From positions 1 through 21,692 of IMG/VR virus record IMGVR_UViG_3300034198_000241: 21,692 bases of DNA. One strand, 5' to 3'. Both the position numbers and the translations under genes were made by a program. The stretch is from a virus. Numbering within the stretch: position 1 is the first letter of the stretch; each line of letters starts with the position of its first letter. The notes under the pieces were generated by a model, which saw nothing but the letters and a program-made list of their open reading frames with translations, ran no database searches and had not been told where the DNA came from. Shown one piece after another: positions 873 to 20,906 of the stretch.

Positions 873-1142
873 TTACCACTTAACCTTGTCGGCCCAAAAA
901 GCCGCGCTCATCTTGCCCTTGGAGATATTCTTGGCATGTCTGGCCTTGAAGCTTTCTCTGCGCTTACGATAAGACTCAGACTCACCAGACTTCTTGGGAG
1001 AACCTGAGACACCCTGCTGACCAAACCGGATAAGCTTTACCTTATCACCCTCTTTAGCCAGCACAGCATGAGACTTAGAAGCATTAGGGGTACGCTTAGG
1101 TTTATTATATCCAGCAAACTTCTCACCTCTATATTCAACCAT
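873..1142 (-). CDS. Conserved small basic phage protein, unknown function
   Basis: 89 residues from the ATG at 1142. Phrases such as YNKPKRTPNASKSHAVL, VKLIRFGQQGVSGSPKK, RRESFKARHAKNI and SAAFWADKVKW belong to a short family I recall from many marine phages and some host genomes; I believe it carries a DUF name but cannot state the number with certainty. I choose ATG 1142 because it overlaps the previous stop (TAATG) and has GGAGGT four bases upstream. A TTG further upstream at 1154 would swallow that site. The conserved Gly/Ser/Lys and C-terminal Trp suggest a small nucleic-acid or protein-binding fold. No catalytic motif. Confidence 0.82.
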   Translation of the reverse strand: MVEYRGEKFAGYNKPKRTPNASKSHAVLAKEGDKVKLIRFGQQGVSGSPKKSGESESYRKRRESFKARHAKNISKGKMSAAFWADKVKW

Positions 1143-2194
1143 TAGTACCTCCAAGTAGAACCCATACCGGGTTGTAGTTTATCTTTAGTCCATACGTCAA
1201 AGTGAATACCAGCCTCTCCCATGTACGTACCGACTGATCCGTAGTCGTTCTGTAGCCAGAAGTCTCTGAGCTTATCCAAAGTCTTACGGTCCTTTACTTG
1301 CTGTCCCTCACGATCATAGATCTTTACATCCGCAGCAAGACCAGCACCTTCCTTGTCCACGTTATGTCGGACAGAACCTGTCTTCTCCTCATCCTGACCA
1401 CCAGAAAATACCTCTACTGTGTACCCTACACCCAAGACTTCTGTGATAGCAGAGTCAAGTTTTGCCTCAAGTTCAAAAGCCACAGGTTTGTTTCTGGTAG
1501 CATCTTGATTGGTATACTTGATAGTGGTAAACCCCACAGGCTTTAGCACTGTAGTCGTTCTAGACCTGATATTACCCGCAACAGTCTTTTCAAAATCTTT
1601 ATTCACCACAATACCAGTCCAAGTTTTCTGAAGGGCTTCTCTTAGAAACTGAGTATTCCCTGCCATAAGATCTGCCTCAAGGTCTCTGCCTTTTGTCCCT
1701 CTCTTATATCTTTCCTTGGCAAGGTAGAAAGCAGCCTTGTCCTGATTAGCAGGATCAAAGGGACCAAGGTCATCGTACTTACCCTTTAGGTAATCCCATG
1801 TCTGCTTTGTAATCTGGTACTTACCAGCGGCTGTACTAGAGCCAGCCTTTGTCACAATACCTACAATGTTAGGATGTTCTTCATAACCCTCAAATTTCTG
1901 ACCACCGACAATAATATTGTAGTCACCACCAGTACCTTCAGCACTGGCAATAGCATCAAGGAAGCCCTGTGCTTGGGGAGACAGACCTGAGTCTGGTACA
2001 GCCGGGGTAATCCTAGGCTCAATAAGATCCTTTGTCTCAGGATCTATAACCTTGTCCATGACAGTAACTTTGTCGAGCAAAGTCTTGACAGATGTCCCTA
2101 GATTGTAGATATCCTGAGGATCTATCGCAACAGGAGGGGTCTGTACTGTTGCATTAGTTACTGTATCCTGAACTTCTGGTTTCAACAGGGCCAT
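1142..2194 (-). CDS. Virion-associated peptidoglycan hydrolase: GH104 lysozyme plus M15-type peptidase
   Basis: 350 residues with three parts. Residues 1-70 are a linker with the KPEV/TPP motif shared with the preceding core protein. Residues about 73-165 match the lambda R (GH104) lytic transglycosylase: FLDAIASAEGT with catalytic Glu86, IIVGG, EHPN, and STAAGKYQITKQTWDYL. Residues about 238-350 look like an M15_3/YcbK-type peptidase: YTVEVFSGGQ, GSVRHN (His277), GLAADVKIY (Asp289, twelve after the His), SVGTYMGEAGIHFDVW (His331) and a final Trp. It would open both glycan and peptide bonds of the wall so that the ejection machinery can pass. Membership among the ejection genes points to a role at entry, not lysis. 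The GH104 call is firm; the peptidase domain is likely but unproven. Confidence 0.88.
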   Translation of the reverse strand: MALLKPEVQDTVTNATVQTPPVAIDPQDIYNLGTSVKTLLDKVTVMDKVIDPETKDLIEPRITPAVPDSGLSPQAQGFLDAIASAEGTGGDYNIIVGGQKFEGYEEHPNIVGIVTKAGSSTAAGKYQITKQTWDYLKGKYDDLGPFDPANQDKAAFYLAKERYKRGTKGRDLEADLMAGNTQFLREALQKTWTGIVVNKDFEKTVAGNIRSRTTTVLKPVGFTTIKYTNQDATRNKPVAFELEAKLDSAITEVLGVGYTVEVFSGGQDEEKTGSVRHNVDKEGAGLAADVKIYDREGQQVKDRKTLDKLRDFWLQNDYGSVGTYMGEAGIHFDVWTKDKLQPGMGSTWRY

Positions 2195-4038
2195 TACTGA
2201 AGACTCTGCTGAAGGATTGTAAGGGCGTCTCTGCCTTGCTTTACAGTATCAGGGATCTTACGACTGGTCCTTGCCAGAACAGCCATAGACTCTACCATAT
2301 CCAAGATTTGGGTAGCATTAGAACCCTGAAGAAGAGAGACATAGTTAGCCAGAATCTTTTTAGGATCTGTCTCAGTAGGAGCCTGTTCAACACCAACAGT
2401 TCTTGAAGCTCTACCAGAACTTTGAGTAGTATACCTATAAGCACCCATTGCCTTCTTTAGATTATTATCAAGTCTGGCTGCTTCAGCGTTTACCACAAGT
2501 TCAACATTACCGTTCTGGTCTATCTCAATATTAAAAGGAACAAGATCTGTTTCCTTAATTGTTTCCATCTGGTTCTTGAAGTTATTGGCAAGAACATTTG
2601 CAGCATTGATAGAGTATGTATTAATAACATTATACATACCCATTCCCTTGTCTGGCATAGACTTAGACATACTATCTGCAATCAAAAATGTCTTATCACC
2701 AAGAAGCTTCTTTATATTAAAAGACTTCATAGAATCCTGTGCCTTATCTATTTCAGGGAGAGAGACCATAAACATTGAAGTAACGGCACGGTGTGTAGCT
2801 TCCATAAACTCAGGACTTTCACCCTCAAGCTTATAGTTTTGTACAGTCTTAAGACCATCATCTACTATAGGTTTCCAAGCAGGTTTTGCATTAAATGTTT
2901 TTATCAAAGATTCATTACTAAAAGCTGTATTGTATCTGCTGGCAAAAGTAGAAGCTGAGTCTGTGGAAGAACCGTCAGACAAAGCTGGTGCCATAGAAGG
3001 AGGAGAAGTACCATTGACAGCAGCAGCGCCTGTGCCGCTCTCTGTAATCCTCATAAACTCTTCTTCACCACCACCATTGACAAGCCACCAGCTAAACGTA
3101 GCAGGGTCAACCTTACCAGCAGCCCACTGCCTAATCACAAACGAAGAATTTGAGAATGTCTTAGCCCAGTCTCTGTTAGCATTGTCTTTGAAAGACCTAT
3201 CCACAATCGTAGAGTTAGCCTCAAGCATACTAATCAAGGCATCAAACTCAGTCATGAATGTTTCAGGCTTGACTGCTGTAGGATCAATACCACTTTTATT
3301 TATATCTGTAGTAATAGAACTAAGAGATAAAGTTCTTGTTGCCTTTACAGCATCAATAAGAGCTAGAGAAGGAGTCGCACCAGACTTTAGGATAGCATCA
3401 ATATTATGCTTCTTAAACATTCCTTGATAATGTTCCTTAGCTCTTTCTTGGAACATTGGCCTAGCTCTGAGTTCAAAAGCTTCCTTCTTACCTTCTGCCT
3501 CTTTCTTAAGAGCAGCCATGTTTGCTTCAAATGTCTGTTGCTTGTGGTAAGCAGCAAAGATCATATCTTGCTGTACTTCGATATTACCCGGGGCAGACAT
3601 CATTGCATCTGACACAGCAAACTTACCCTCAGGTGATTCCTGCGCCCACTTAAGTCTGTTCTCTTTGTTGATGTCTTCAATAGAGATACCTGTCACAGGA
3701 TAAATCTCACCAGACACTTCACCAAAGAACTTGTTAAGATCATCCACATACATCGGATATTCACGGTAAGCATTCTGCTGAAGAGACTTGAAAGTCACAG
3801 CCTTACGTGTAGGATCTTCAATCTGGTCAATCTTCATCATGTTAGCAGAGACAACCCTAAGGGCTTCAGACTTTCTCTCAGCCTCAGTAGGGGCCTTTAC
3901 TTCCTTTTCTTCTGTTGCTGTTCTAAAGATCTGACCCACAGAAGAGATAACTCCAGAGTAGTCCATACTAGGTGGGGTATAGGCAGTTACATTAGTACCA
4001 CCAATTTCTCTTACTTCAGGTTTGAAAAGTTCAGCCAT
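2194..4038 (-). CDS. Internal core / ejection protein (T7 gp15-type)
   Basis: A 614-residue, mainly helical and charged protein between the 1451-residue core protein and the wall hydrolase. Size and helical content fit gp15-type ejection proteins, which form the periplasmic tunnel. The N-terminus (MAELFKPEVREIGG, then TPP at 21-23) resembles that of the next gene, see findings. A Ser/Pro/Ala-rich linker near 340-365 (GAAAVNGTSPPSMAPALSDG) divides two helical halves. GGGAG-like bases (GGGAGAA) precede the ATG, and the stop overlaps the next start (TAATG). I see no enzyme motif. Confidence 0.78.
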   Translation of the reverse strand: MAELFKPEVREIGGTNVTAYTPPSMDYSGVISSVGQIFRTATEEKEVKAPTEAERKSEALRVVSANMMKIDQIEDPTRKAVTFKSLQQNAYREYPMYVDDLNKFFGEVSGEIYPVTGISIEDINKENRLKWAQESPEGKFAVSDAMMSAPGNIEVQQDMIFAAYHKQQTFEANMAALKKEAEGKKEAFELRARPMFQERAKEHYQGMFKKHNIDAILKSGATPSLALIDAVKATRTLSLSSITTDINKSGIDPTAVKPETFMTEFDALISMLEANSTIVDRSFKDNANRDWAKTFSNSSFVIRQWAAGKVDPATFSWWLVNGGGEEEFMRITESGTGAAAVNGTSPPSMAPALSDGSSTDSASTFASRYNTAFSNESLIKTFNAKPAWKPIVDDGLKTVQNYKLEGESPEFMEATHRAVTSMFMVSLPEIDKAQDSMKSFNIKKLLGDKTFLIADSMSKSMPDKGMGMYNVINTYSINAANVLANNFKNQMETIKETDLVPFNIEIDQNGNVELVVNAEAARLDNNLKKAMGAYRYTTQSSGRASRTVGVEQAPTETDPKKILANYVSLLQGSNATQILDMVESMAVLARTSRKIPDTVKQGRDALTILQQSLQ

Positions 4039-7000: not shown

Positions 7001-8399
7001 ACAAAGAAGATCTAAGCTCTGAAGCTTCTGTGGCAGAAGCCAGTCCCTTCATACTAAGGTTTCTCTCAAGGGCTACGACATACCCCTCAGGGCCATCACC
7101 CTTGGCGTTGACACCATACGGTTCTACCTTACCACCAAACGGCTTGGCAAACTTCTGAGCATTGGCCCAGTCCTTGAACGGTACACCGTCTTCTCTGCCA
7201 AGAGTAACCTTTACAGCAAAGTTATCCAGACCCAAGTCTTTTTCCTGAATATCCAAGACATGAAACTTGTTCTTTTTCTCAAGGTAATTCTTGTACCTTG
7301 TCTTTGAAGCCTGAAGCATCTCAGGTGAATAGATACCACGGTAAGCCGCAGAAACCTTTTCAAAGTAATCATTGGCTACTTCATTAGCCAGAGTAGGCTT
7401 AAGGGTGGCACCAAGGCCATTAGAACCCACAGCAGAAGACCCGGGAGCCGCATGAGTGGCAAGATTAACTGATGTCTGCCCAGTACTCAGGGCATTGTCT
7501 ACCACAGCATTAGCCGCTGCCTTGCCTCCTGTAGCCTCTGCTACCTGTGCAGCATCCGTAGCCAAAGAAAGCTTTGCAGTTGTACCTGTTGTCCTTGCTA
7601 CGGCCTTACCAGCAGTAAGAACCTTACCAATAGGAACAAAGCCAGCCACATCAGCAGCCAGCCAAAGACCTTCGTTCTCTGTTGTACCCATCGTATTGAT
7701 TGTGTTAAACCGGGACCAGTACAGAAGAGAATTGTCACCAAAGATACCTAGCTCTTTGGCCTTTTGAGCAAACTTTCTGGCAAGGATTCTCTTCTTATTT
7801 AGATCAGTCTCAAGGAAGATCTCCATGTACTGTTCTCTGCCAAGCTGGGACTTACCCATCCAGTCTCCAGCACTTGTTTCTGTAACACCAAGAAAGTTCT
7901 CAGCAACACCTACAGTAGCTTCTGTAGCAAACATACCAAGGAAAGATCCAACATACCCAAGCATAGACTCATCCGGGGCATTGGCCTTAAACTCTTCAGA
8001 CAGGATAGCCATTGTCAAAGCAGTCTGATCTACATCAGGATTAAATCTGTCTACGACAATGTTCTCAATTACGTCTTTACTTTCCTGTGCATTCTCAATG
8101 TACTGGGTATTCTTCTGATAAGTATCCAGAGTTTGTCTAAAAGATTCTGGTGTAAAGTTTTCTGTATAAGCCTTCTCAACAAGATCAGGCTGTTCTTTTT
8201 CCATGAAGATATCGTAGTACTTGCCGTCTTCAACAGCAGTCAAAGCTTCTTGGACAGGGATGTTGTTATGCTGTGCATACCTCTCTGCTAAAGAGAGCTT
8301 GTACTTCTTACTCTTCTCAACCTGTTGAGTGACTTCTTCCTCGCTAGGAAAAAGACTTTCTACTACCTCAAAGGTTCCATCTTCAGGGAAAAGGCTCAT
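4044..8399 (-). CDS. Large internal core / DNA-ejection protein (T7 gp16-type position)
   Basis: At 1451 residues it is the largest protein here, comparable to T7 gp16 (about 1,300). The N-terminus is acidic with a repeated SLFP (SLFPEDG, SLFPSEE). A Gly/Ala-rich hydrophobic region lies at about 245-330 (AADVAGFVPIGKVLTAGKAV), and there is a long helical middle. Near 1135-1165, MTRASAAPWQQGFWSLPTQ resembles the late part of podovirus core proteins. A charged helical C-terminus closes it (VRELTRLKGKYIQEKDYRS). No lysozyme or transglycosylase domain is apparent, unlike T7 gp16; that activity is on the 350-residue protein instead. It would sit inside the capsid and span the envelope during DNA entry. 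The exact counterpart is inferred. Confidence 0.82.
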   Translation of the reverse strand: MSLFPEDGTFEVVESLFPSEEEVTQQVEKSKKYKLSLAERYAQHNNIPVQEALTAVEDGKYYDIFMEKEQPDLVEKAYTENFTPESFRQTLDTYQKNTQYIENAQESKDVIENIVVDRFNPDVDQTALTMAILSEEFKANAPDESMLGYVGSFLGMFATEATVGVAENFLGVTETSAGDWMGKSQLGREQYMEIFLETDLNKKRILARKFAQKAKELGIFGDNSLLYWSRFNTINTMGTTENEGLWLAADVAGFVPIGKVLTAGKAVARTTGTTAKLSLATDAAQVAEATGGKAAANAVVDNALSTGQTSVNLATHAAPGSSAVGSNGLGATLKPTLANEVANDYFEKVSAAYRGIYSPEMLQASKTRYKNYLEKKNKFHVLDIQEKDLGLDNFAVKVTLGREDGVPFKDWANAQKFAKPFGGKVEPYGVNAKGDGPEGYVVALERNLSMKGLASATEASELRSSLFDWFASPEITSSDRLNTTLKRGLQQIGYVESEIVKEHNNLLKKVSRADKRGLDQVISKLNIENSDWYDLSEFKDVYRKQTGREATQEVQDAYVSTYKLSETARWLDADKVLKRTSGEKYGQFMGTGDGTNFYRMKKLDDIGNLPSTEKYPQNFVLDLNTGKVIDRKTLFALKRNKKQNSLYQIVDVDNAPVIDGKKVLYATGSLKSSRPVTLSDVVPKIAGGYRETGNIHGFLASRKIRSDLSGNVLNLTPGIVFVGRTAKELADAAKDIKSLMKTLGDFKSGAISKSAADDLVKANNGFNPNIEDIDLFEKYLAKSGIEGDVEIVAKGAELPSVGVGQFENYRLGKFTTYEELYAKGNLDNDVIHGYGSGQFKQVDSLVSVERDFAKGINYIAEREYSYKAIEGFLKGARANNAITNLSQIEKLPFVEQLRQAKFANNKAGDLFRTERRVIMNRLNETNDFAQAWNRRMTGFGEFIFEKSGIDVIDKMSFRPDVALRSFAFDLKMGLFNIDQLLVQGSAALSIMAVSPLHGLKAAAAYLPMRIAMINRNPEVLKALYKRSSAFIGMPEKDFLEVVDYMYKSGRFQVNQNISEINSTYDMTRGVIRNIRESGRMFFNEGDRIGRLMATNVAYRDFRKAYPTLDIATDSGYRIMDEFITKRADTLTMNMTRASAAPWQQGFWSLPTQWLGYQARLMENIFFGRNLSGAEKTRFGLSQIAFFGAAGVPFASVGLNAFVDQTSDGINKDLYTTLRYGMLDLILSNVTGEDTALSARLGTGEGLNQLWQDIMDKNFVEILGGPAGSIAYDSGMGAIGLVSSVFTSDIALQQYDLNKVLRNISTWNKATQAYYLMQTGEFVNKKGQVLAEGMNPWNVLWNTLGIPFQEVEMYYDMKQTLFAEKDMIASVTDRVRELTRLKGKYIQEKDYRSAEGIRDEIKSLLAPLNFAQQKDVIKRSQESWKSLSEIAIQQDSLTAKQGLSRQFQKLGE

Positions 8400-8890
8400 T
8401 AAGTATACCCCATCCCAAGACCTCTGGACTGAATCGGGTTAGCCATCTTGCCAAGTTGCTTCATACCAGAGTTGTAAAGACCAGAGCCAAGATACCCAAG
8501 TTCACCACCGATAGATGCAACACCCTGTGCGATACCAGCCTGAGTCTGATACTGAGCGGCATTGTTAAGGAAGCCCTGTTGCTTGTCAACAGATCTAGCC
8601 GACATCTGCTGGAACCCAAGGGTAGACAGTACCTGATTTTGTAGGCCACTCAGTCCACCAGTAAGACCTGTGCCACCCAGACCACCAATCTGTGCAGCCA
8701 CATTGACTGTCTGTCCTGCGGCAATAGCCTGTGATCTAAGAAGCTGTCTACGTTCCCTCTCATCAGCAGACCTCTGGAGTCTACGTTGTTCCTTCATGGC
8801 CTTCTGCTGCTCTTCCATAGCCTTCTTCTGGGAGTACATCCCAAAGACACTGGCACCAATGCCAATAACCGCTCCTGCTGCTTGCGCCAT
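8399..8890 (-). CDS. Small internal virion protein (T7 gp14-like)
   Basis: A 163-residue Ala/Gly/Gln-rich protein. It has an N-terminal Gly/Ala hydrophobic stretch (AAGAVIGIGASVFGMYS), a strongly charged coiled coil (about 20-52, KKAMEEQQKAMKEQRRL), and Gly-rich hydrophobic segments (IGGLGGTGLTGGLSG and a later GELGYLGSGLY). This build is shared by gp14-type ejection proteins, which leave the capsid first and form a pore in the host outer membrane. It follows the acetyltransferase as TAAATG, with AAGGA upstream, and couples to the large core protein by TAATG. Assignment rests on composition and position. Confidence 0.8.
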   Translation of the reverse strand: MAQAAGAVIGIGASVFGMYSQKKAMEEQQKAMKEQRRLQRSADERERRQLLRSQAIAAGQTVNVAAQIGGLGGTGLTGGLSGLQNQVLSTLGFQQMSARSVDKQQGFLNNAAQYQTQAGIAQGVASIGGELGYLGSGLYNSGMKQLGKMANPIQSRGLGMGYT

Positions 8891-9349
8891 TTAAATATCC
8901 TTCCAATAAATAACTTCTTTTTCTGAATACCCTAGCCCTTTATAAAGTCTACCCAGATGCTTTGGACTAAGGTTTGTGAAAGTACTAACAGAAAGTACGT
9001 CTGCTTTCTTGTATCTACCCCATGCCTCAAAAGCCTTAAGCATTTCTTTTCCGTACTTCCGGTATTCTTCCTCTACAAAGATCGACATACAGTATGCCAT
9101 CATGGAAGAATGAAAGTAATGCGGGGTCAGGTAGCCAAAGACATAACCTTGAACTTTGCCGTTGATGACAAGCGAGATACCAGTAGCATTGTCATTCTTC
9201 AGGGCTTCTTTGAACAGGGCTTCTATCCGGTCTTCTTCAAACTCTCTGTCTGGTACAGCAGCTTTAACAGGAACCTTGGATAGTCTTACTATGTCTTCGT
9301 AGTCTTCTGGTCTGAAGTATCTTATCTTAATATCTTGGATTTGATCCAC
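8891..9349 (-). CDS. GNAT-family N-acetyltransferase
   Basis: A 152-residue protein with the GNAT layout. IRYFRPEDYEDIVRL starts the fold, and residues 58-75 (ISLVINGKVQGYVFGYL) form strands 2-4. Motif A (about 88-106, MSIFVEEEYRKYGKEML) binds acetyl-CoA. LGRLYKGLGYSEKEVIYWK is the usual C-terminal strand. In motif A the last Gly/Ala of the R-x-x-G-x-G/A pattern is Glu, so cofactor binding could be altered. It would move an acetyl group to an amine; the substrate cannot be told. The start is GTG at 9349, 23 bases inside the nozzle gene, without a strong ribosome site. Sitting in the tail module, it may act on a virion protein or on a host target late in infection. Confidence 0.82.
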   Translation of the reverse strand: MDQIQDIKIRYFRPEDYEDIVRLSKVPVKAAVPDREFEEDRIEALFKEALKNDNATGISLVINGKVQGYVFGYLTPHYFHSSMMAYCMSIFVEEEYRKYGKEMLKAFEAWGRYKKADVLSVSTFTNLSPKHLGRLYKGLGYSEKEVIYWKDI

Positions 9350-20232: not shown

Positions 20233-20634
20233 TTATGGATATTTATTTCTAGGTAGCTCAAAGTGAGGACCGTCTTTAAAAGACTTCCAATCACCACCCC
20301 AAGTAATAGGAATATTTTCTAGCTTGGCTGCTTCCTTTACTAGAATAGAAAGCTTAATATACAAAGGCCAATCCCATTTAATCTTACCGTTTAGTGTAAC
20401 AGCAAAGTCTACAGCCTTACTGTAGCCATCCTTACCGGGGATATGTCTAGAGTTTAGCGTTGTTGTAGCACCAGCCTTAAGCAGCTTCTTCTGTTCTTCT
20501 AGAGTTCTAGGACCACAGGTAATAATGAATCCAAAAGACTTATCTTTTATGAGTTTAGCTGTACGGCGAACAACCTTAACAAGATCCGGGTGAACTCTTT
20601 TAAGTTTCGCTTCAGACGAAGAGTTAATAACCAT
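20233..20634 (-). CDS. Endolysin, M15-family zinc peptidase (L-Ala-D-Glu / D-Ala-D-Ala type)
   Basis: Peptidoglycan peptidase that would cut the peptide stems of the host wall at lysis. From the ATG at 20634 it has 133 residues. The first metal site is NSRHIPG (His64), twelve residues before Asp76 in SKAVDFAV; the second is GPHFEL (His124), with Asp121 three residues earlier, matching the D-x-x-H arrangement of T5-type M15 endolysins. GGDW at 113-116 is also typical. I prefer this start to an upstream in-frame ATG at 20670 because 20634 has GGAG about ten bases upstream and overlaps the previous stop as TAATG, whereas 20670 has no ribosome site and would add 12 unconvincing residues. No signal peptide is seen, so export needs a holin; membrane proteins on both sides fit. 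The family call is firm, the exact bond cut is not. Confidence 0.92.
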   Translation of the reverse strand: MVINSSSEAKLKRVHPDLVKVVRRTAKLIKDKSFGFIITCGPRTLEEQKKLLKAGATTTLNSRHIPGKDGYSKAVDFAVTLNGKIKWDWPLYIKLSILVKEAAKLENIPITWGGDWKSFKDGPHFELPRNKYP

Positions 20635-20906
20635 TACGGTATTCTCCAGTGTATATGAGAAGAAATCCATTGAAAGATATACGGAATAGCCATACCAACT
20701 ATAACAATAACACCACCGATATACGCAATCTTTTCTTTTATAGCTGTTTGGAATACCTGAAGTTCTTCTACTTCTTCTTTTAATTCAGCAATATCTTTAG
20801 CACACTGCTCAGACTGAGGCAGATTTTTAATACCATCTTTCATATATTCTTGATTGGCTTCAATCCTAGCCAACCTTTCTGCTACCTCAATCTGCCACTG
20901 TTCCAT
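20634..20906 (-). CDS. XhlA-like small membrane protein, candidate holin or lysis accessory protein
   Basis: A 90-residue protein. Residues 1-30 are polar, about 33-58 form a heptad-rich, Glu/Lys-rich coiled coil (AELKEEVEELQ), and about 61-80 form one hydrophobic helix (IGGVIVIVGMAIPYIF), followed by a short tail. An N-terminal amphipathic or coiled part with one C-terminal membrane helix is the layout of XhlA/haemolysin-type lysis proteins, which work with a holin to release endolysin. It sits directly before the endolysin, and its TAA stop overlaps the preferred endolysin ATG (TAATG), so the two are probably translated together. The Shine-Dalgarno before its own ATG is weak. It could instead be a spanin component or another membrane anchor. 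Confidence 0.6.
   Translation of the reverse strand: MEQWQIEVAERLARIEANQEYMKDGIKNLPQSEQCAKDIAELKEEVEELQVFQTAIKEKIAYIGGVIVIVGMAIPYIFQWISSHIHWRIP

Follow-up and report, generated by a model that had tools for sequence, protein, structure and literature searches.

The enzyme with which a phage opens the wall at entry is generally regarded as a lone muramidase. Two-enzyme virion hydrolases are already known, among them gp13 of phi29, a single podovirus virion protein that joins lysozyme-type and zinc peptidase domains and is used at entry; its lysozyme half was reportedly described by Xiang et al. in 2008. T7 likewise holds its entry glycosidase within the ejection-protein set, as the N-terminal lytic transglycosylase of gp16, and the hydrolase domains of ejection proteins are known to be mobile, moving between gp16 and gp15 homologues (PMC8954989). 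Relatives of the individual domains are found elsewhere: lambda R is a GH104 endolysin, Ply500 and LysB4 are M15 endolysins, and E. coli MepK/YcbK is an L,D-endopeptidase of the Peptidase_M15_3 type. Proteins of Rhizobium phages RHEph12 and Y65 and of phiM6 are structural proteins in which an M15-like domain accompanies a glycan-cutting domain (PF18013 or Hydrolase_2).

Here we describe a gene for a 350-residue protein in a 21,692-nucleotide stretch of viral DNA (IMG/VR virus record IMGVR_UViG_3300034198_000241; the window hereafter). The gp13 peptidase (listed in PMC9662197) is an M23 enzyme at the tail tip of a Bacillus phage, whereas the window protein pairs GH104 with a predicted M15-like domain, is encoded in an ejection operon and belongs to a phage with a presumed Gram-negative host. 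Unlike the enzyme of T7 gp16, it is the product of a separate gene, its glycosidase is GH104 rather than SLT, and it has gained a peptidase-like domain and an N-terminal tag like that of its neighbour. It shares the fold and the catalytic Glu of lambda R, but lambda R consists of a single domain and works in lysis, and the window protein has two domains and is linked to ejection genes. The second domain aligns with the H-x6-D and HxD metal motifs of MepK in a profile comparison, yet it is missed by PF08291, bears an insertion in the first motif and occurs in a phage virion context. Ply500 and LysB4 are its best PDB sequence matches, aligned at the H-x6-D motif; they are, however, endolysins with an ExxH base, and only the first half of the window-type domain aligns with them. 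The RHEph12, Y65 and phiM6 proteins carry other glycosidases and are much larger, and the Rhizobium cases lie in a myovirus baseplate region. What is new is the GH104 and M15-like pair as a separate ejection-operon gene, the tag common to this enzyme and its neighbour, and a peptidase-like family, not modelled by Pfam, that stands beside several glycosidases. Both domains, their catalytic residues, the gene coupling, the common tag and a separate lysis cassette were computed here; their coordinates are collected in Table 1.

Table 1. Features of the window that bear on the two-domain hydrolase
Feature	Position	Strand	Basis
Small basic protein MVEYRGEKF..KLIRFGQQGVSGSPKKSG..	873-1142	minus	coupled to hydrolase stop
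Two-domain putative entry hydrolase gene, 350 aa	1142..2194	minus	ORF, ATG start
M15/MepK-like predicted peptidase domain, residues 221-350	1145..1534	minus	profile vs PDB, MepK alignment, Foldseek
His331, predicted zinc ligand 3, followed by Asp333 (HxD)	1202..1204	minus	MepK alignment
Asp289, predicted zinc ligand 2	1328..1330	minus	aligned with Asp of MepK H-x6-D
His277, predicted zinc ligand 1	1364..1366	minus	aligned with first His of MepK H-x6-D
GH104 (lambda R-like) glycosidase domain, residues 70-195	1610..1987	minus	PHROG, phmmer, Foldseek
Glu86, counterpart of lambda catalytic Glu (lambda Glu19), SEGT motif	1937..1939	minus	phmmer alignment
N-terminal tag, residues 1-45 (MALLKPEVQ..TNATVQTPP...)	2060..2194	minus	HMM and pair shuffles
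614-aa internal virion protein, possibly gp15-like, N-terminal tag residues 1-48	2194..4038	minus	position and size only
gp16-like internal virion protein D, 1451 aa	4044..8399	minus	PHROG_12003 internal virion protein 8.9e-38; ICBM2 match
gp14-like internal virion protein B	8399..8890	minus	PHROG_8168 1.6e-12; PHROG_418 internal virion protein 0.08; ICBM2 synteny
Separate M15_4 endolysin, lysis cassette	20233..20670	minus	PF13539 1.5e-8; PHROG_465 endolysin 2.8e-48; kept in two relatives
90-aa membrane protein, holin-like, overlapping endolysin start	20634..20906	minus	sequence and position; same place in L156

The gene, its neighbours and the N-terminal tag

By sequence, the phage is a cobavirus-like (SIO1/ICBM; Zobellviridae), marine-type, short-tailed podovirus; the tail tube B protein shares 43% identity with its counterpart in Roseobacter phage SIO1, and internal virion protein D of Lentibacter phage ICBM2 is a match for the gp16-like protein. 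Gene-order comparison, including that with ICBM2, places the hydrolase gene in the ejection/structural operon. The stop codon of the 614-aa gene overlaps the hydrolase start as TAATG, and at position 1142 the hydrolase stop is in turn overlapped by the ATG of the small gene that comes next, making the hydrolase gene a member of a translationally coupled series in which the genes for the gp14-like, gp16-like and 614-aa proteins precede it. Its immediate neighbours are thus the 614-aa protein in the ejection position and a small basic ORF, for which Pfam gave no match; neither a holin nor a spanin gene adjoins it. No homologue of the 614-aa protein emerged from a phage-database search, and it is from position and size only that this protein may be called gp15-like. 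Neither Pfam nor the PHROGs detected a muramidase or SLT domain in the gp16-like protein.

The hydrolase and the 614-aa protein begin alike. When an HMM of the first 48 residues of the 614-aa protein was run against 1536 ORFs, this neighbour ranked first and hydrolase N-termini came next, the best of them, from L008, at E 3.2e-8. The window hydrolase itself scored weakly (E 0.13), yet above every unrelated ORF, as did the hydrolase N-termini in 11 of 12 relatives. Direct comparison of the two N-termini in the window gave a score of 47, which none of 500 shuffles reached; the pairs from L017 and L009 were weaker, with 2 and 3 of 500 shuffles, respectively. Nine pairs were tested, and in each of them the remainder of the 614-aa neighbour scored below its N-terminus. 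The tag is kept across relatives whose hydrolases are 52-98% identical, and a search for it outside their clade found none.

Two predicted catalytic domains

An earlier note had read the 350-residue protein as a GH104 muramidase followed by an M15_3/YcbK-like peptidase. Its first half is upheld: residues 66-195 match the PHROG_90 endolysin family (2.7e-19), phmmer retrieves lambda lysozyme (3d3d/1am7) from the PDB at 1.7e-9, and Foldseek aligns the AlphaFold model with 1am7 at E 5.5e-8 (probability 1.00, TM 0.70 by target). The model used was built from 62 sequences and has a pLDDT of 75.6, with values of about 71-94 in the GH104 domain; a first model from 10 close sequences (pLDDT 54) was discarded. 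The column of Glu86 holds E in all 36 GH104 sequences that have a residue there.

The second half of that reading stands in part: a remote match to the M15/MepK group was found, but not to Peptidase_M15_3 as Pfam defines it. Residues 221-350 matched no Pfam peptidase in hmmscan, and PF08291, sought directly, gave nothing at E<=10, its curated Pfam score not being reached. Relatives of this half were taken from phage records and viral contigs (59 loci, and later 294 confirmed relatives, of which 80 were kept). A profile of 37 such sequences found M15 wall peptidases as its first four matches in the PDB, namely Ply500 (5.1e-4), LysB4 (0.009), 8q2g (0.037) and 23ri (0.076); a narrower alignment of the same region gave chance matches only (E>=0.06). 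Aligned with E. coli MepK by hhalign, the profile scored 35.3 (E 4e-5, probability 70%, 92-96 columns); none of 200 shuffled MepK sequences exceeded 21.4, and none of 86 decoy ORFs exceeded 20.2. The PDB ranking and this alignment, set against shuffles and decoys, led us to reject an unrelated fold for the C-terminal half. Structure comparison of the whole-chain model is weak, the matches being Ply500 (2vo9, probability 0.69) and MepA (1u10, 0.44) at E of about 0.2 and low TM; in BFVD the matches include Sinorhizobium phage proteins as well as phage proteins that bear the names Peptidase M15B and Peptidase. No useful alignment was obtained between this domain and the window's own M15_4 endolysin, and homology of the two was discarded.

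The MepK alignment places His277, Asp289 and His331, the residues that the earlier note had named for the peptidase, on the H-x6-D...HxD motifs of MepK, and each is invariant in 37 of 37 diverse sequences and again in a second set of 38 proteins. The surrounding SGGQ and RHxxGxAxD are likewise invariant among the 37. Variation is seen around this core. The third-motif Asp333 is D in 25 of the 37 and G in the other 12. In the window clade five extra residues separate His277 from Asp289, giving H-x11-D in place of the H-x6-D of nearly all other members, and this insertion could affect the predicted site. The ExxH general base of M15B/C enzymes such as Ply500 was sought in the alignments, where no Glu stands three residues before His331; Glu327 of the window protein lies four residues before it and is not conserved. 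Taking together the missing Pfam match, the insertion, the absence of ExxH and the replacement of Asp333 by Gly in 12 of 37, we assign residues 221-350, on profile evidence, to a remote M15/MepK relative that is outside Pfam Peptidase_M15_3 proper. The domain limits first put forward, 70-170 and 235-350, had to be redrawn nearer to 70-195 and 221-350.

Recurrence of the M15-like domain in phage proteins

Occurrences of the M15-like domain were sampled by motif patterns, and the list that follows is a sample rather than a census. In tail proteins of Rhizobium phages RHEph12 and Y65 it accompanies a PF18013 tail lysozyme, as it does in tape measure L106, and in a structural-region protein of Sinorhizobium phage phiM6 it accompanies Hydrolase_2; it is also present in the SLT protein L137 and in several tape measures. 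A T7-type gp16 homologue (L166:3728-8227; PHROG_342 at 8.6e-136 over residues 234-1496) carries the domain at residues 92-219, directly before an SLT domain that begins at 240, with 37% identity to the window domain; by homology, L166 places the M15-like domain in a T7-style ejection set. In a virion RNA polymerase of the N4 type (L092:1898-8314), a transglycosylase at 548-687 is followed by the M15-like domain at 702-806, both before the polymerase region.

T4-type hubs of the Gp5 kind (L108, L110, L113 and L133) have the domain at about residues 150-267, in L108 and L133 directly after the OB domain. In T4 gp5, a lysozyme sits in this hub position after the OB domain. Short proteins of 220-310 aa also start with the M15-like domain (L196-L199, L202, L203, L223, L224, L231, L233 and L235), and in at least several of them the third motif reads HxG rather than HxD. 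When genome contigs were scanned with one or two short patterns, nothing convincing emerged, and a single archaeal MAG fragment that matched was judged on its sequence to be a chance hit. Given the minority of short proteins, this widespread family is found mostly, but not only, in virion proteins; it appears usually to stand beside an unrelated glycosidase and mostly in phage proteins of DNA delivery.

The occurrence of the M15-like half beside four different glycosidases and in several tail types suggests that paired glycan and peptide cutters may serve entry in many phages. With a little more doubt than conviction, we propose a large, Pfam-unmodelled family of M15-group phage peptidases that would act mainly in genome entry and would on many independent occasions have become fused to unrelated glycosidases in gp16 and hub proteins, in tape measures and in virion RNA polymerase, complemented by short gp15-type N-terminal tags that would recruit extra enzymes into the ejectosome. 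If this is true, the repeated joining would make the cutting of both bonds a common requirement of entry in these hosts. Because Pfam misses the family, such predicted peptidases are annotated as hypothetical, tail or structural proteins.

Entry, lysis and packaging

We regard it as likely that the window protein is a virion-carried, ejected peptidoglycan hydrolase whose GH104 and M15/MepK-like zinc domains open the wall at entry; from its domains and residues, it very probably cuts both sugar strands and peptide bridges. How it would be packaged and ejected, what each domain would do and which bond the second would attack, we infer as follows. The hydrolase would be packaged with the ejection proteins, probably via its N-terminal tag of about 45 residues, and, as the DNA is delivered, ejected into the periplasm. 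The GH104 domain would there cut the glycan strand (lambda R does so by transglycosylation), and the zinc domain of M15/MepK type would cleave a bond in a stem peptide or a cross-link, so that a local hole would open in the wall around the growing ejection tube. In T7, where gp16 carries the transglycosylase, gp14 is thought to hold the N-terminus of gp15 (PMC8954989), and by analogy the neighbour-like N-terminus of the hydrolase could bind at that site. MepK is L,D-specific (PMC12729407) and about 30% of cross-links in Agrobacterium are of the 3-3 type (PMC11527210); we hypothesize that the second domain might cut L,D (3-3) cross-links as MepK does, and we keep the idea of a 3-3-rich host as a hypothesis since the domain has relatives, too, in tape-measure and hub proteins of phages without known hosts.

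Alternatively, the protein could act late in infection, as an additional endolysin or as an accessory to lysis, which we consider rather unlikely. GH104 is the family of the lambda endolysin, and the genes that occupy a comparable slot in the cobaviruses ICBM1 (lysozyme-like) and ICBM2 (amidase) have been labelled endolysins, near spanins and holins (PMC6775973). Against this, the window and three relatives have a dedicated membrane-protein/endolysin cassette near TerS. The cassette endolysin is M15_4 in two of the relatives (92% and 80% identical), whereas the third (L155:6861-7932, record G006) has a GH19-like endolysin instead (PF00182 at 1.2e-4, just under the curated cut-off); similar small membrane proteins surround the endolysin despite this swap, the L155 protein in the holin-like position being DUF6127, and the GH19-like relative still keeps the hydrolase, at 64% identity. 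The published label itself may be wrong: SIO1 gp24 (L013:13485-14228) shares 91% identity with the gene that is labelled an endolysin in ICBM1 and 38% with the C-terminal part of the T5S1 gp15-position protein (L011:15910-18546), to which a lysozyme-like domain is fused at the C-terminus. With this fusion, and with an amidase or SLT enzyme in the slot in other cobaviruses, the slot looks like an exchangeable position for entry hydrolases, and in cultured cobaviruses a slot annotated as endolysin may hold entry enzymes. As we read the sequences, (i) the separate cassette, (ii) the N-terminus that resembles that of a neighbour in the ejection position, (iii) a gp16-like protein with no muramidase match in Pfam or the PHROGs and (iv) the T5S1 fusion and slot exchange all argue against lysis, as does the finding of most C-terminal domain relatives in tape measures, hubs, gp16 and virion RNA polymerase. 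The gp16-like protein with no muramidase match, the TAATG coupling, the tag, the separate cassette and L166 together also support the suggestion of the earlier note that the entry hydrolase is here encoded as a separate gene outside gp16.

Entry could also be served by a virion muramidase whose M15-like C-terminal domain is degenerate and, no longer a peptidase, only binds wall peptides. The insertion between His277 and Asp289 in the window clade, the missing ExxH base, the change of HxD to HxG in part of the family and the weak fold score would all fit such a binder; mere binding, however, is not expected to preserve a metal triad, and the invariance of the triad and of its SGGQ and RHxxGxAxD surround across very different proteins makes this quite improbable to us. 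A further alternative touches the packaging step only and would leave the remainder of the entry model intact: the tag could be a trace of duplication or a structural coincidence with no packaging role, the enzyme being carried otherwise or in the tail. We give this an appreciable, though lesser, chance, as the tag is confined to one clade and some pairs are weak; that two proteins with no other relationship both begin with it, and that relatives retain it, speaks for a role in packaging. The common tag gives a testable handle on how ejection proteins reach the virion core.

Elsewhere in the ejection region, a GNAT acetyltransferase gene (8891-9349, minus) separates the gp14-like gene from that for tube B; cobaviruses have this arrangement too, and in them the enzyme was proposed to be the T7 gp13 counterpart (PMC6775973). 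A near-repeat, SLFPEDGTFEVVE / SLFPSEEEVT, opens the gp16-like protein (8330-8399, minus) and might represent another kind of address signal.
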